The notes under the pieces were generated by a model, which ran no database searches, had not been told where the DNA came from, and was given only the letters and a program-made list of their open reading frames with translations. The position numbers and the translations under genes were made by a program. Positions 3 to 38,443 of a stretch of DNA of 64,000 bases are shown in pieces. The stretch's first letter is position 1; the number at the start of each line of letters is the position of its first letter. Source of the stretch: Pseudomonadota bacterium (lineage in GTDB: Bacteria > Pseudomonadota > Alphaproteobacteria > Dongiales > Dongiaceae); assembly GCA_021792365.1 (NCBI GenBank), contig JAJYUT010000001.1, positions 1 to 64,000 on the forward strand. Direction: 5' to 3'.

Positions 3-650
3 GATGCGCGGCGCTCCTCCGCGTCGATCGACAGCGCGCATCTGGGCGCCTATGCGACCGGAGAGTGGGGCGGCCTCGGCCTGCGGCTGGGCGGCGAATA
101 CGTTTGGCACGATGTCGAGACGGAGCGCAGCGTGGCGTTCGCCGGCTTCTCGGATCATCTTTCGGCGGACTACGACACCGGCGCGGCGCAGGTCTTCGGC
201 GAGGTGGGCTACCGGGTGGATCTGGGAACCGCCGGCATCGAGCCCTTCGTCAACGCTGCCTACGTCCACCTGGACCTGGATGGCTTCAGCGAGAGCGGCG
301 GCGACGCGGCCCTGCGGACCCGCGACCAGAGCACGGATGCCACCTTCACCACCCTCGGCCTGCGCGCCGAGCTGCCGGTCGCGCTCGGTGAAGCGAGCGG
401 GCGGCTCCACGGCATGGCAGGCTGGCGCCACGCCTTCGACGATACGACGCCGGACACGACGCTGGCCTTCAGCGGCGGCGACCGCTTCACGGTCTCGGGC
501 GTGCCGCTCGCCAAGGACACCGCGGTTCTGGAGGCCGGCTTCGAGCTTGACCTCAGCGACAAAGCCAGCGTCGGCATCTCCTACGACGGCGAGTTCAGCT
601 CCGGCTTCTCCGACCAGGGCGTCCGCGCCGGCTTCAAGCTGACGTTCTGA
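3..650 (+). CDS. Autotransporter outer-membrane beta-barrel domain, C-terminal part (5' truncated)
   Basis: Open from the window edge, 215 residues to a TGA. The translation is a run of alternating amphipathic strands rich in Gly, Asp and aromatics (GLGLRLGGEYVWHDV, GEVGYRVDLG, EPFVNAAYVHLDLDGF, VGISYDGEFSSG) and ends in GFKLTF. A terminal Phe after a last strand is the outer-membrane signature read by the BAM complex. This fits the family of type V autotransporters, in which the barrel anchors a passenger domain at the cell surface. The passenger lies upstream, outside the window, so the function of the exported part cannot be told. A short GTG-started version at 132 is in the same frame and is simply internal. 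Confidence 0.85.
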   Translation, partial: DARRSSASIDSAHLGAYATGEWGGLGLRLGGEYVWHDVETERSVAFAGFSDHLSADYDTGAAQVFGEVGYRVDLGTAGIEPFVNAAYVHLDLDGFSESGGDAALRTRDQSTDATFTTLGLRAELPVALGEASGRLHGMAGWRHAFDDTTPDTTLAFSGGDRFTVSGVPLAKDTAVLEAGFELDLSDKASVGISYDGEFSSGFSDQGVRAGFKLTF

Positions 651-909: not shown

Positions 910-1935
910 TCATCCCCCCGCGGCGTTGGCGCGTTGGATGGCGAGGGTGACGATGCGGTTGAGGAGGTCGCGGTATTTGAGGCCATCCTTGGCGGCGGCT
1001 TCGGCGAAGTCCTCGACCTTGGCGATCTCCGGGTTCGGATTGGCTTCGAGGAAATAGGGAATGCCGTCGGCGCCCAGGCGGAAGTCGACGCGGCAATAGC
1101 CGTCGAGCTCCAGCGTGCGGCAGATGCGCTTGGCGATGACGCCGATGCGCGTGTGCAATTCCGGCGCAAGGTCCCTTGCGGGGCCGCTCCGGATGCCGAG
1201 CTTCTCCTGGTATTCGAGGTCGTGCTTCACCTTGGCGGTGGCGATGGCGTGGCCGCCCTCACCCATGTCGCCGAATTCCAGCTCCCAAACCGGCAGCACG
1301 CGCAGGCGGTCGTTGCCGAGCACGCCGACATAGAGCTCGCGCCCCGCGATATACTGCTCGACCAGCGCGTCGGTGCCGACCTTCTCGTGGATGAAGGCAA
1401 CGCGCTCTTGCAGCTTCTCGTCGTTCTCCACCACCGAGGCCTGGGCGATGCCGACGGAGGCGTCCTCGCTGACGCTCTTGACGATCAGCGGGAAGCCGAG
1501 ACGCCCGGGCCGCTTCGCCTTGCGCCGCATGGGGAAGACGGCGAAGGCCGGCACCGGGATGCGATGATAGGCGACCAGCTTCTTGGACAGCGCCTTGCCG
1601 CGCGCCAGCATCAGGCCGCGCGGGTTACAGCCGGTATAGGGGATCCTCAGCAACTCGAGATAGGACGCGACGTTCTGGTCGTACGCCGTCTCGCCATGGA
1701 ACTGCTCCAGCAGGTTGAAGGCAACGTCCGGCTTCCACTCCTCGATCACGTCGCGGATCGGCTTCAGCTCGTATTGCACGCCGAGCGGCATCACCTCGTG
1801 CCCGGCGGCGCGCAGGGTGCTCACCACGTCGTACTCGGTCTTCCAGACGTTGATCTCTTTCTCGCTGTGGCCCTTGAGGGAATCGGGCGGCATCAGGTCG
1901 GGGTGGAGCAGAATCAGAATGCGCAGTTTCTTCAT
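910..1935 (-). CDS. ATP-grasp ligase, D-Ala-D-Ala ligase-like
   Basis: A 341-residue protein with an N-terminal Rossmann-like lobe (KKLRILILLHPD) and an ATP-grasp domain. Visible ATP-grasp features are YTGCNPRGL near 100, Lys153 in FPLIVKSVSEDASVGIA, LVEQYIAGRE near 191-200, the metal-binding Asp284 in YCRVDF, and Glu297/Asn299 in FLEANPNPE. These match the Ddl fold, which joins a carboxylate to an amine through an acyl phosphate. It is unlikely to be the housekeeping Ddl: no peptidoglycan genes are near, and it is coupled to a metallopeptidase (start ATG overlaps that gene's TGA as ATGA). I chose 1935 over the ATG at 1947 because of that overlap. The substrate is unknown; a peptide or amino-acid ligase is an inference. 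Confidence 0.85.
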   Translation of the reverse strand: MKKLRILILLHPDLMPPDSLKGHSEKEINVWKTEYDVVSTLRAAGHEVMPLGVQYELKPIRDVIEEWKPDVAFNLLEQFHGETAYDQNVASYLELLRIPYTGCNPRGLMLARGKALSKKLVAYHRIPVPAFAVFPMRRKAKRPGRLGFPLIVKSVSEDASVGIAQASVVENDEKLQERVAFIHEKVGTDALVEQYIAGRELYVGVLGNDRLRVLPVWELEFGDMGEGGHAIATAKVKHDLEYQEKLGIRSGPARDLAPELHTRIGVIAKRICRTLELDGYCRVDFRLGADGIPYFLEANPNPEIAKVEDFAEAAAKDGLKYRDLLNRIVTLAIQRANAAGG

Positions 1936-2957
1936 AGCGCGAACCATTCCCGCCGCGACGGCGAGTAGAGCGAGTGCACCGTCTTTGCCGTCAGTAGCAC
2001 GGTGAAGTTAATAATGAGTTCCCGCTGATTGCCCGAGGCGCGCAGCTTCAGCTCGCGGCAGCGGGCGATCATCTCGTCCAGCACCGAATCCAGGGTGAGC
2101 TGGTATTCCCCGGTCCATTTCGCGACCATGCGGCGGATGCGCGCCCGATTGTGCCGGAGAAAGGTGGAGGCGGCCGGCGCGCGGTGGTGGCGCGGCTCGT
2201 CGGAGAAGATGCGGCGCAGATCGCGGTCGTAGATGGTGGTGGTGGGCGTGGCGTAGAGCGCCTGCTTCTGCACGTAATGCTCGGCCAGGGTGTGGGTGAG
2301 CTGGCTCAAGGGATCGATGCGGTGGCGCTGGGTGAGCAGCGGCTTCTCGTCCGCGATCTCGCGCATCAGCTCGTCGACATATTCGAGCTTCCGGATGACC
2401 GGCCAGCCCTCATAGCGCTTGCGCCAGTCGGAGCGCGGGCGCAGCCAGACGGCAAAGGTCTCGGCGAAATCCTCGTCGGGGTGGCTCTGCGCGTACCACA
2501 GGCGCAGATGCTGCACGTAGCTCTTGCTGGCGGGGTTGGGCCGGTAGAAATCCGGATAGCGGGTGGAGGAGCGGCCGAACAATTGCTGCCACCGGCGGCG
2601 GCGGTTGAGCTGATAGGAATGCTGGATCACGTGGCCCGCCTCGTGGCGCAGGATGCGCATGCAGTCGGGGACCGTCCCGCCCTCGACATCGATGATCATC
2701 TTGCGCTCCAGCCGGATCAGGCGCGGATGGGCGAGATAGAAGGGAATCGCGATGCCCGGCGTGGTGTCCGGGCTGAACCATTCGTTGGAGATCCAGGCGT
2801 GGGGCCGGATGCGCAGCCCCTTCTGCTCCAGCTCGCCATGCAAGGCGCGCAGGCACAGCTCCAGCCAGGTCCCCTCGACGGTGACCTTGAGGTCCTTCAG
2901 GCGGAGTTCGAGAAGCTCCTCGTCCGGCAACGAGGCCCAGGGGAACCGCGACGGCAT
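1932..2957 (-). CDS. Putative zinc-binding metallopeptidase
   Basis: A 341-residue protein with no signal peptide. HEAGHVIQH starts at residue 105, giving the HExxH zinc site, and DEDFAETFAVW at 161-171 offers a third ligand (Glu166), as in gluzincin-type peptidases. The surroundings (CMRILRHEAGH; many Arg and Trp) resemble the loosely described putative zinc-binding metallopeptidase group, not a named peptidase. Its stop codon overlaps the start of the ATP-grasp ligase, so the two are probably made together. What it cuts is not shown; a short peptide made or modified by the partner ligase is one guess. Confidence 0.75.
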   Translation of the reverse strand: MPSRFPWASLPDEELLELRLKDLKVTVEGTWLELCLRALHGELEQKGLRIRPHAWISNEWFSPDTTPGIAIPFYLAHPRLIRLERKMIIDVEGGTVPDCMRILRHEAGHVIQHSYQLNRRRRWQQLFGRSSTRYPDFYRPNPASKSYVQHLRLWYAQSHPDEDFAETFAVWLRPRSDWRKRYEGWPVIRKLEYVDELMREIADEKPLLTQRHRIDPLSQLTHTLAEHYVQKQALYATPTTTIYDRDLRRIFSDEPRHHRAPAASTFLRHNRARIRRMVAKWTGEYQLTLDSVLDEMIARCRELKLRASGNQRELIINFTVLLTAKTVHSLYSPSRREWFAL

Positions 2958-32523: not shown

Positions 32524-32779
32524 GGAACGCAATTCTCCCGGAATGTGGCCGCGACTCTAGGCGAAGCGGCGCCTGTCCTACAAACCGGATTCGCCCGAAG
32601 GCCCGCGCGAAAAAGCAAAGCGTCGCCTGACCCCGCTCCCGCGCAAGCTCGTTGCGCCGCATTGGCCGGGCGATGGCGGAACCTTGCGCTCTGCCCGTCG
32701 CCCTTGCCGCCGGCCCGCGCCAGTCTAGAATGACGGCAAGGGGGCACGCCTGATCCAAGCACCCGCCGGGAGGAATTGC

Positions 32780-33943
32780 ATGGAATTGCGGAACCTCGAC
32801 TTCGACCTGGGCGAGACCGCCGAGGCGTTGCGGGACAGCGTGCGGTCCTTTGCCGAGGCGGAGATCGCCCCGCGCGCCGCCGAAATCGACCGCCAGGACG
32901 ATTTCCCCGCCGATCTGTGGCGCAAGTTCGGCGATCTCGGCCTGCTCGGCATCACCGTCGAGGAGGAGTTCGGCGGCGCGGGCATGGGCTATCTGGAGCA
33001 CGTGATCGCGCTGGAGGAGATCTCCCGCGCCTCCGCCTCGGTCGGGCTATCCTATGGCGCGCATTCCAATTTGTGCGTCAACCAGATCCGCCGCAACGGG
33101 ACGGAAGCGCAGAAGCGCACATACCTGCCAAAGCTGATCTCCGGCGAGCATGTCGGCGCGCTCGCCATGAGCGAGCCGGGCGCGGGCTCCGACGTCGTCT
33201 CCATGCGCCTCAAGGCCGAGCGGCGCGGCGACCGCTACGTGCTCAACGGCACCAAGATGTGGATCACCAACGGGCCCAACGCCGACATCATCGTGCTCTA
33301 CGCCAAGAGCGATGCGGAAGCCGGGCCGCGCGGCATCTCCGCCTTCATCTTCGAGACCGCGACCAAGGGCTTCAGCGTCGCGCAGAAGCTGGACAAGCTC
33401 GGCATGCGCGGCTCCAACACCGGCGAACTGGTGTTCAACGAATGCGAGGTTCCGGCGGAGAACGTGCTGCAGGCCGAGGGCCGGGGCGTCAACGTGCTGA
33501 TGAGCGGGCTCGACTACGAGCGCGCCATTCTGGCAGCCGGGCCGCTCGGCATCATGCAGGCGGCGATGGACGTGGTGGTCCCCTATATCCACGAGCGCAA
33601 GCAGTTCGGCCAGGCGATCGGCACCTTCCAGCTCATGCAGGGCAAGGTGGCGGACATGTATTCCACCCTCTCCGCCTGCCGCGCCTATTGCTATGCGGTG
33701 GCGAAGGCGTGCGACAAGGGGCAGATCACGCGCAAGGATGCGGCGGGCGTCATCCTCTATTGCGCGGAGAAGGCGACCTGGATGGCGCTGGAGGCGATCC
33801 AGTGCCTGGGCGGCAACGGCTACATCAACGATTATCCGACCGGGCGCCTGCTGCGCGATGCCAAGCTCTACGAGATCGGCGCGGGCACCAGCGAGATCCG
33901 GCGCATGCTGATCGGCCGCGAGATCTTCGAAGAGACGGCCTGA
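32780..33943 (+). CDS. liuA: Isovaleryl-CoA dehydrogenase
   Basis: A 387-residue acyl-CoA dehydrogenase. The FAD/substrate signatures [15 protein letters not shown] and [18 protein letters not shown] are present, with [22 protein letters not shown] in the middle: the Glu of DYERA is the catalytic-base position of isovaleryl-CoA dehydrogenase, unlike the C-terminal Glu of most other members. [35 protein letters not shown] ends it. GGGAGGAA precedes the ATG. First gene of the leucine degradation operon, acting on the product of the branched-chain keto-acid dehydrogenase. Confidence 0.95.
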
Positions 33944-33948
33944 CCCTC

Positions 33949-35556
33949 ATGTCCACCCTCAAAAGCGCGATCGACACCCGCTCCGAAGACTTCCAGCGCA
34001 ACCATGCCGCGATGCAGGCCCAGGTCGACGATCTGAAGCGGCTGGTGGAGCGCATCAAGCTGGGCGGCGGGGAGGCGGCACGCGCCAGGCATCTCTCCCG
34101 CGGCAAGCTGCTGCCGCGCGAGCGCATCCGCTGCCTGATCGATGCCGGCGCGCCGTTCCTGGAACTCTCGCAGCTCGCCGCCCATGCCGTGTACGATGAC
34201 GACGTGCCGGCGGCCGGCATCATCACCGGCATCGGCCGCGTCTCGGGCCGGGAATGCGTGATTGTCGTCAATGACGCGACGGTGAAGGGCGGCACTTACT
34301 ATCCGATCACGGTGAAGAAGCATCTGCGCGCGCAGGAGATCGCCAGGCAGAACAACCTGCCCTGCATCTACCTGGTCGATAGCGGCGGGGCGAACCTGCC
34401 GAACCAGGACGAGGTGTTCCCCGACCGCGATCATTTCGGGCGCATCTTCTACAACCAGGCGACCATGTCGGCCGCCGGCATCCCGCAGATCGCGGTGGTG
34501 ATGGGATCCTGCACGGCGGGCGGCGCCTATGTGCCGGCGATGTCGGACGAGAGCGTCATCGTCAAGAACCAGGGCACCATCTTCCTGGGCGGGCCGCCGC
34601 TGGTGAAGGCGGCGACCGGCGAGGTGGTGAGCGCGGAGGAGCTCGGCGGCGCAGATGTGCATTCGCGGCAATCGGGCGTCACCGATCACGTCGCGGAGAA
34701 CGACCGGCACGCGCTGGAGATCGCGCGCTCGATCGTCGCGCATCTCAACCGCAACAAATCCATGTCGCTGGATGTCACGGCGCCGGAGGAGCCGCTCTAC
34801 GATCCCAAGGAGATCTACGGCATCATCCCCGCCGATCCGCGCCAGCCCTATGACGTGCGCGAGGTGATCGCGCGGCTGGTCGACGGCAGCCGGTTCGACG
34901 AGTTCAAGAAGCTCTATGGCCCGACCCTGGTCTGCGGCTTCGCGCGCATCTGGGGCTATCCGGTCGGGATCGTCGGCAATAACGGCATCCTGTTCTCCGA
35001 ATCGGCCCTGAAGGGCGCGCATTTCGTGGAGCTGTGCGCGCAGCGCGGCATTCCCCTGCTCTTCCTGCAGAACATCACCGGCTTCATGGTGGGCCGGAAA
35101 TACGAGGCCGGCGGCATCGCCAAGGACGGGGCCAAGATGGTGACCGCCGTCTCGTGCGCGCAGGTGCCGAAGCTCACCATGCTGATCGGCGGGTCGTTCG
35201 GCGCGGGGAATTACGGCATGTGCGGCCGCGCGTTCTCGCCGCGTTTCCTGTGGATGTGGCCGAATGCGCGCATCTCCGTCATGGGCGGCGAGCAGGCCGC
35301 CAATGTGCTGGCGCAGGTGAAGCGGGACGCCATGGCGGCGCGCGGCGCGGAATGGCCGGCGGCGGAGGAAGAGTCGTTCAAGGCGCCGATCCGCGCGCAA
35401 TACGAGGCGCAGGGGCATCCCTATTTCGCGGGCGCGCGGCTGTGGGACGATGGGCTGGTCGACCCCGCCGATGCGCGCATGACACTGGCGCTTGGCCTCT
35501 CCGCGGCGCTTAATGCGCCGGTCGAGCGCACCCAGTTCGGCATATTCCGGATGTGA
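33949..35556 (+). CDS. liuB: 3-methylcrotonyl-CoA carboxylase, carboxyltransferase (beta) subunit
   Basis: A 535-residue carboxyltransferase beginning [30 protein letters not shown], which is the MccB beginning. The acyl-CoA/biotin oxyanion regions [19 protein letters not shown] and [42 protein letters not shown] are intact. Size and [31 protein letters not shown] support methylcrotonyl-CoA over propionyl-CoA. It starts five bases after liuA. Confidence 0.95.
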
Positions 35557-35562
35557 GCAAAG

Positions 35563-36342
35563 ATGACATCGTATCTGCAGATCGAGAAGGCGGACAAGGT
35601 CGCGACGGTGCGGCTCAACCGGCCGGACAAGCACAATGCGTTCGACGAGTATCTGATCGCGGAGCTGACGCAAGCGTTTCGTGACTTGGCGGCCGATGCC
35701 GCGGTGCGGGTCGTCGTCCTCGGCGCCAATGGGCCAAGTTTCTCGGCGGGCGCCGATCTCGACTGGATGAAGCGCATGGCGACGCTGGGCCGGGGGGAGA
35801 ATGTGCGCGACGCCCTCGCGCTGGCGAACCTGATGGAAGAAATCGAGCGTTGCCCGAAACCGGTGGTGGCGCTGGTGCAGGGCGCGGCCTTCGGCGGCGG
35901 CGTCGGGCTGGTCGCCTGCTGCGATATCGCGATCGCGACGACGAGCGCCAGCTTCTGCCTGTCGGAAGTGCGGCTGGGGCTGGTGCCCGCCGTCATCTCG
36001 CCCTATGTGGCGGCGGCGATCGGACCGCGCGCCTGCCGGCGCTATTTCCTCAGCGCCGAGAAGTTCGACGCCGCGACGGCGGAGCGGCTTGGCCTGGTTC
36101 ACCGCGTGGTGGAGCCGGACGCGCTCGACGCCGCACGGGACGAGATGGTGGGGCACCTGCTGAAGGGCGGGCCGGCGGCGCTGACGGCGGCGAAGGACCT
36201 GATCCAGCGCGTGACGCTCGCCCGCATCGACGAGCCGCTGCGCCGCGACACCGCCGGGCGCATCGCCGAGGCGCGCGCCTCGAACGAGGGCAAGGAAGGC
36301 ATCGCCGCGTTCCTGGAGAAGCGGAAGCCCAAATGGCAGTGA
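35563..36342 (+). CDS. liuC: 3-methylglutaconyl-CoA hydratase (enoyl-CoA hydratase family)
   Basis: A 259-residue crotonase. NGPSFSAGADLDWMKRMA has the first oxyanion-hole loop, and GAAFGGGVGLVACCDIAIA the second. Glu in SEVRLGLVPAVISPYV is at the position of the hydratase acid/base. The enzyme adds water to 3-methylglutaconyl-CoA to give HMG-CoA. It lies six bases after liuB. Confidence 0.93.
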   Translation: MTSYLQIEKADKVATVRLNRPDKHNAFDEYLIAELTQAFRDLAADAAVRVVVLGANGPSFSAGADLDWMKRMATLGRGENVRDALALANLMEEIERCPKPVVALVQGAAFGGGVGLVACCDIAIATTSASFCLSEVRLGLVPAVISPYVAAAIGPRACRRYFLSAEKFDAATAERLGLVHRVVEPDALDAARDEMVGHLLKGGPAALTAAKDLIQRVTLARIDEPLRRDTAGRIAEARASNEGKEGIAAFLEKRKPKWQ

Positions 36343-36383
36343 GGGACATATTGAGACAAGGACGACGCGACACGCCCGGTGAG

Positions 36384-36410
36384 CCCCTTCCCCCACAAGG
36401 GGGGAAAGGG
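36384..36410. repeat. Small C-rich/G-rich hairpin between liuC and liuD
   Basis: CCCCTTCCCCC, a short ACAA loop, then GGGGGGAAAGGG form an imperfect stem with one unpaired A. Units of this sort are common between genes in GC-rich Alphaproteobacteria. It sits in the only large gap of the operon (97 bases) and may modulate carboxylase subunit ratios. Confidence 0.5.
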
Positions 36411-36439
36411 CCTCTCTTTGAGGGGGAAGCGCTGAGGGC

Positions 36440-38439
<2,000 letters not shown>

Positions 38440-38443
<4 letters not shown>

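Follow-up and report, generated by a model that had tools for sequence, protein, structure and literature searches.

Two genes lie on the minus strand near the start of the window, by which we mean the whole 64,000-nucleotide stretch of DNA analysed here. Between positions 910 and 2957, a zinc-peptidase-like gene forms the upstream and a Ddl-fold ATP-grasp ligase gene the downstream member of a pair. Its features are as follows.

910..1935, minus strand: Ddl-fold ATP-grasp ligase gene, 341 aa, PF07478
1932..2957, minus strand: zinc-peptidase-like gene, 341 aa, partial PF15887 (Peptidase_Mx) match
1932..1935, minus strand: ATGA overlap of the peptidase stop and the ligase start, read in the sequence
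2631..2645, minus strand: HEAGH zinc motif of the peptidase, residues 105–109, read in the sequence
2493..2495, minus strand: Tyr155 of the peptidase, a possible catalytic Tyr, invariant
2460..2474, minus strand: EDFAE of the peptidase, residues 162–166, likely third zinc ligand (E162, D163 and E166 invariant)
1477..1479, minus strand: Lys153 of the ligase, aligned with the ATP-binding Lys144 of DdlB, invariant in the alignments
1024..1047, minus strand: EANPNPEI of the ligase, residues 297–304, which by alignment keeps Glu297 and Asn299 and stands in place of the Ddl loop

The ligase length is counted from the ATG at 1935; the longest open reading frame begins at 1947. The ATGA overlap described in the first-pass annotation is present in the sequence, and a 4-base overlap occurs in 70 of the 79 two-gene loci found among the best 80 of at least 577 relatives. 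By Pfam, the neighbours of the pair are an autotransporter barrel fragment, an alpha/beta hydrolase, a glyoxalase-like gene and mutL, with a DUF4440-like gene scoring below its cut-off; no cell-wall gene was found among them, in agreement with the first-pass annotation. Against a Dongia deserti relative, dN/dS is 0.13 for the peptidase and 0.12 for the ligase, so both look like genes under selection. The window begins at the first base of its contig, and this start falls inside the autotransporter barrel gene (window 3–650). Further along, at 32776–38443, carboxylase and enoyl-CoA hydratase genes form a cluster of the methylcrotonyl-CoA carboxylase type. The window's second PF07478 match was rejected as a member of the module, being a carboxylase subunit of the methylcrotonyl-CoA type.

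The peptidase matches PF15887 at 32.4 bits (cut-off 27), over profile positions 90–164 of 236 only, and a relative from clade II (one of three clades described below) scores 24.9 bits, under the same cut-off. The family itself is named as putative. The HEAGH motif with a later Glu, noted at first pass, was borne out: all 37 aligned relatives keep H105, E106, H109, E162 and E166. The same residues, together with Y155 and D163, are invariant over the 19 rows of an alignment spanning clades I–III (L166 excluded), and all seven are also found in one canonical PF15887 protein. By analogy with M34 zincins, EDFAE is likely to supply the third zinc ligand, and Tyr155 may, again by analogy, be catalytic. 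The predicted structure (pLDDT 82.7) resembles M34-type zincins over residues ~25–204 (best Z 9.9, rmsd 3.3, 135 residues). Pro-Pro endopeptidases reach Z ~7–8, where a value below 8 may mean only a common arrangement. Foldseek alone gave no significant match for this model (best E 0.8), and a sequence search found no solved relative at E 10.

The ligase matches PF07478 (Dala_Dala_lig_C) at 97.3 bits (Pfam cut-off 24), and its predicted structure (pLDDT 87.8) aligns to solved Ddl structures at Z 30–34. The Ddl type is its best Pfam match; a RimK match of 21.7 bits lies just above the cut-off of 21. We compared the ligase with E. coli DdlB and with the host genome's own Ddl. The first-pass reading that it keeps its ATP and metal residues agrees with the alignment, in which K114, K153, E193, E200, R282, D284, E297 and N299 correspond to DdlB K97, K144, E180, E187, R255, D257, E270 and N272, which we take to be ATP, metal and oxyanion ligands. 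All eight are invariant in relatives, including those of clades I–III. Where Ddl carries the NTxPGMTxxSL substrate loop, the pair ligase has EANPNPEI followed by AKVEDF. The presumed substrate-binding residues of Ddl (Glu15, Ser150, Gly276 and Ser281-Leu282, E. coli numbering) are replaced by K26, A159, E303 and E308-D309. Tyr216, presumably the omega-loop residue of Ddl, aligns with Tyr242; the multi-clade alignment instead suggests K237-H/W (the K237-H238 region).

The two best curated NCBIfam models of Ddl score the pair ligase well under their cut-offs (135.9 and 124.9 bits, where 243 and 245.65 are required). The host genome has five PF07478 matches; the strongest, at 143.8 bits, belongs to a different gene, between murB and ftsQ, and two others (L003 and L005) are weak. 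In 20 of 20 genomes tested, PF07478 had one or more matches outside the pair. The gene order murB-ddl-ftsQ and the lost substrate loop together indicate that the pair ligase is not the cell's Ddl. The possibility, raised at first pass, that it might be the only Ddl in its genome can be rejected, judging by the apparent ddl between murB and ftsQ. From its sequence and predicted structure, it would be expected to form amide bonds as other ATP-grasp ligases do, though it stands apart from Ddl in its curated scores, in its substrate-binding residues and in not being the wall-synthesis ddl of the genome. Having a Ddl-like fold and Pfam domain, yet scoring below the curated cut-offs and keeping a peptidase of its own, such a ligase is easily misnamed.

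Conservation and surroundings of the pair

A scan of genome contigs with the peptidase confirmed at least 577 relatives, of which the best 80 were analysed. The ligase adjoins the peptidase in 79 of these 80 loci, and the 80th (L084) stops at a contig edge. Since the 80 loci were picked by similarity, an evenly drawn sample of 398 Pseudomonadota genomes was also examined. The peptidase was present in nine and a ligase match in 11. All nine peptidase genomes had the ligase adjacent, at >500 bits; the ligase match of the remaining two is distant (132 bits, 35% identity), and neither has a peptidase ortholog. One of these two (G138) carries a canonical PF15887 gene on another contig. The distance correlation between the two genes is 0.76 (37 loci). 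In the host's own family the peptidase is present in nine of 17 genomes, so the pair is patchy there.

The possibility of a plasmid-borne peptidase was rejected, with no match in 72,556 plasmid records. The ligase had matches in 544 of those records, all below 60% identity; two plasmid loci (L122 and L123) carry other Ddl-like ATP-grasp genes with a lysine 2,3-aminomutase or KamA-type gene close by, and L123 also has diaminopropionate-type synthesis genes nearby. A catalogued defence system was likewise rejected (no PADLOC match at E 0.01).

Alphaproteobacterial pairs are solitary. Over 80 clade I loci (the best 80 of at least 577), no third gene family is conserved throughout, and neither transporters nor amino-acid genes accompany the pair consistently. 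Pfam found ordinary, varying genes in the flanks of the four loci inspected. In a survey by eye of 63 alphaproteobacterial loci (L074 excluded) and the window, the short ORFs shared near the pair looked to be of low complexity or confined to Bradyrhizobium and its near kin.

The first-pass annotation had placed the pair in Alphaproteobacteria. A limitation to that group was not borne out and is rejected; with Pseudomonadota and Gemmatimonadota as the phyla sampled, 39 of the 150 Gemmatimonadota genomes proved to match the peptidase profile, with 41 matches among them. The ligase was present in 30 of 30 loci returned and at eight of eight further matches viewed with larger flanks, or 38 of 38 examined, a count that covers the matches other than G502:C117, G507 and G512. 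The pair falls into three deep clades, with the window and the alphaproteobacterial loci in clade I. Clades II and III have mean identities to clade I of 34%–38% for the peptidase and 35%–37% for the ligase. With FastTree, the two genes give trees that agree in their groups: clade I of alphaproteobacteria, clade I of Gemmatimonadota, clade II and clade III (L082 was grouped with Gemmatimonadota on sequence grounds), and support for alphaproteobacterial clade I is modest (0.56 and 0.76). In the five loci of clade III the two genes are convergent, with gaps of <60 bases in four and ~1.3 kb in one, which indicates that their closeness is not operon inheritance alone. The first-pass annotation had allowed that the pair might prove rarely conserved; the two genes were found together in every set searched: 79 of 80 loci, nine of nine Pseudomonadota genomes and 38 of 38 Gemmatimonadota loci. 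The pair is a real, widely conserved and uncharacterised two-gene module.

Two side observations concern Gemmatimonadota. A contig labelled as such (L023) carries a pair ~70% identical to that of the window, in the range of alphaproteobacterial relatives, and misbinning or transfer is possible. In five of seven genomes searched (G459, G464, G465, G466 and G468), the contig with the pair carries a second Ddl-type match 3–15 kb away.

A small peptide gene and tldD/tldE in Gemmatimonadota

In 13 of 13 clade II loci read, an ORF of ~50 aa lies upstream of the peptidase. The encoded peptide has the motif EP-hydrophobic-GI(V/I)IS.G...Y(V/I)W(G/A)P.P and in most cases ends in Ala. Its dN/dS is 0.05–0.16 in close pairs and up to 0.5 in more distant ones, and no family match was found for one peptide in Pfam and two in NCBIfam. 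A gene of ~260 aa adjoins the peptide gene in 40 of 40 loci, representing 35 distinct places; most of the copies scanned show weak similarity to SAM methyltransferases. Loci of the peptide family are L154–L165, L150 and L171–L210 (for example L162:7230–7415).

The peptide gene adjoins the pair in clade II only; in Gemmatimonadota genomes with clade I pairs it was found at unlinked places in six of six tested. At E 0.01 the peptide matches 62 of the 150 Gemmatimonadota genomes, including 32 of the 111 that are free of the pair, and nine of the 39 pair genomes have no match. No match was found in three genomes of this sample with clade I pairs (G576, G598 and G615), nor in G502, where a second, clade II-like peptidase match has an internal stop. 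The association of peptide and pair (Fisher p 3e-7) is confounded by kinship. Near the peptide cassette the gene order, with tdh and a methyltransferase that we take to be of the RlmI type, is the same with or without the pair. In several pair-free genomes tdh follows the peptide gene where clade II has the pair, so that the closeness is partly inherited order. The first-pass annotation had proposed looking for a partner such as a small precursor peptide, and in Gemmatimonadota a small conserved gene of that kind exists, the ~50-aa gene. This does not extend to the window: a search for small precursor genes around the window pair and the alphaproteobacterial pairs found none, the Gemmatimonadota peptide profile has no match in the host genome, and nine alphaproteobacterial genomes gave no peptide match below E 0.1.

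Genes for TldD/TldE are a further neighbour. In the 150-genome sample, tldE lies directly upstream of the pair in four genomes (gaps of 6–48 bp) and 2.1 kb upstream of it in a fifth. In another genome it is divergent, 2.9 kb away, and in two more it is convergent and on the ligase's side; further cases of tldD/tldE beside the pair are L077, L088 and L090. One to several tldE copies in varied orientations lie by the pair and the peptide in G459, G542, G556, G596 and others. With a Gemmatimonadota query, no tldD/tldE match was found beside the pair in the alphaproteobacterial loci searched. Pair and peptide lie within 6 kb of each other in 13 genomes (0.10 expected), pair and tldE in eight of the 39 pair genomes (0.19 expected), and peptide and tldE in 14 genomes (0.36 expected), where the chance figures treat genomes as independent and kinship inflates the contrast.

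Function of the pair

Judging by fold and residues, one member of the pair probably builds amide bonds and the zinc enzyme probably cuts them. We favour, with some confidence, the reading that both genes form a functional unit that works in the cytosol on the amide bonds of peptides. It draws on the co-inheritance of the genes, their intact active-site residues, the lost Ddl loop and the closeness of the peptide and tldD/tldE in Gemmatimonadota. Ddl-type ATP-grasp ligases have a standard mechanism that runs via an acyl phosphate. The pair ligase would accordingly activate a carboxylate with ATP as acyl phosphate and join an amine to it, the likely substrate being a peptide or amino acid and the predicted product something other than D-Ala-D-Ala. 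The zinc peptidase would act on the same peptide, either freeing the end that the ligase uses or trimming the product. Both proteins are predicted to be cytosolic (no signal sequence by eye). We infer the activity of the enzymes, their shared substrate and the order of the steps alike. The alphaproteobacterial substrate may be encoded elsewhere, or may be a metabolite.

The Gemmatimonadota neighbours point to ribosomal peptides and undescribed peptide handling, and a peptide role fits these neighbours, a small conserved peptide gene being present there. Peptide tailoring or recycling, as put forward at first pass, is a candidate role. A bolder reading makes the pair the core of a whole peptide pathway as yet undescribed. 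The Gemmatimonadota substrate would be the ~50-aa ribosomal peptide (EPxGIxISxG...AYxWGPxP), worked on by the methyltransferase-like protein, TldD/TldE, the zincin and the ligase, and alphaproteobacteria would use an unlinked peptide. We hold this fuller scheme to be possible, though doubtful.

Other readings must be weighed against one functional unit acting on peptides. The ligase might add residues to a protein tail, as RimK does, with the zincin removing residues or regulating the ligase. Such a role needs no precursor gene, which fits the alphaproteobacteria, and there is an analogue in RimB, reported to bind and regulate RimK, alongside a second ATP-grasp/peptidase operon, rlo (PMC12239564). 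The ligase is of the Ddl type and not the RimK type (21.7 bits), however, and the small peptide and tldD/tldE neighbours would be left unexplained, so we think this unlikely. Slightly less likely still is a small metabolite amide that one enzyme makes and the other breaks down, for example a storage compound or a dipeptide osmolyte. ATP-grasp ligases of the Ddl fold do make dipeptides, and the solitary pair of alphaproteobacteria would suit such a task, but its surroundings include no conserved transporter or amino-acid gene and the Gemmatimonadota neighbours suggest ribosomal peptides.

A side branch of cell-wall metabolism, in which the ligase makes a D-amino-acid dipeptide or a wall-peptide variant and the zincin recycles wall peptides, would account for the Ddl fold and for the second Ddl-type match 3–15 kb away in five of seven Gemmatimonadota genomes. 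Against it stand the separate ddl in wall-gene order in the host genome, the loss of the Ddl substrate loop and the lack of wall genes by the window pair, which together make it improbable. Finally, tight gene order can last without shared function, and the two genes might be neighbours by inheritance only and do unrelated work. Their co-occurrence in nine of nine Pseudomonadota genomes, and a pairing kept over ~35% identity and in five convergent loci, make this very improbable. A single unit acting on peptides is the reading we retain. The pair occurs in laboratory-tractable genera such as Bradyrhizobium, and in Gemmatimonadota there is a candidate substrate to follow, with further possible partners.

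Comparison with known systems

With Ddl (PF07478) the pair ligase shares its fold (Z 30–34) and the aligned ATP, metal and oxyanion residues; it differs in the NTxPGMTxxSL loop and the N-terminal Glu, both of which Ddl has. The window peptidase shares the HExxH, Y155 and EDxAE residues with Peptidase_Mx proteins, as judged from one canonical member. A zinc ribbon is present in two of three canonical members examined, whereas Pfam finds none in the window peptidase. One canonical PF15887 gene is divergent from a cluster of DUF2126, circularly permuted ATP-grasp, alpha-E and transglutaminase genes, unlike the window peptidase, whose partner is a Ddl-type ligase. Two other canonical loci examined are without such an ATP-grasp cluster. 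By eye, and among the matches listed, at least five of 36 canonical PF15887 matches lie within 10 kb of a CP_ATPgrasp_2 gene; the host genome has no CP_ATPgrasp_2 match.

TldD/TldE, which lie beside the pair in eight of 39 Gemmatimonadota pair genomes, have been reported to remove the leader of microcin B17 (PMC5810440) and also to serve other RiPPs (PMC10885120). These roles in RiPP maturation make peptide processing plausible in Gemmatimonadota. PGM1 of pheganomycin is described as an ATP-grasp ligase joining a nonproteinogenic residue to a small peptide (PMC8939145), and its likeness to the pair ligase is one of published description. In graspetide-type loci a precursor gene lies next to the ATP-grasp gene, and none was found at the window and the alphaproteobacterial pairs. 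The ATP-grasp enzymes of graspetide-type loci are of the RimK/MvdD type; by Pfam the pair ligase matches the Ddl type best and RimK just above its cut-off (21.7 bits against 21).

We found no description of a Ddl-fold ligase paired with a PF15887-like peptidase in the literature searched, a body that lacks the 2009 amidoligase survey of Iyer and colleagues, where a mention is possible. ATP-grasp genes coupled to peptidase genes have been reported for the Anbu operon (PMC5666114) and for the rim (RimB-RimK) and rlo operons (PMC12239564), and graspetide-type branches 7 and 8 are described as having peptidases and no detectable precursor (PMC8939145). Compared by description, all of these use peptidase families other than that of the pair. 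The coupling of an ATP-grasp ligase to a peptidase is an established theme, and the pair looks like a further variant of it.
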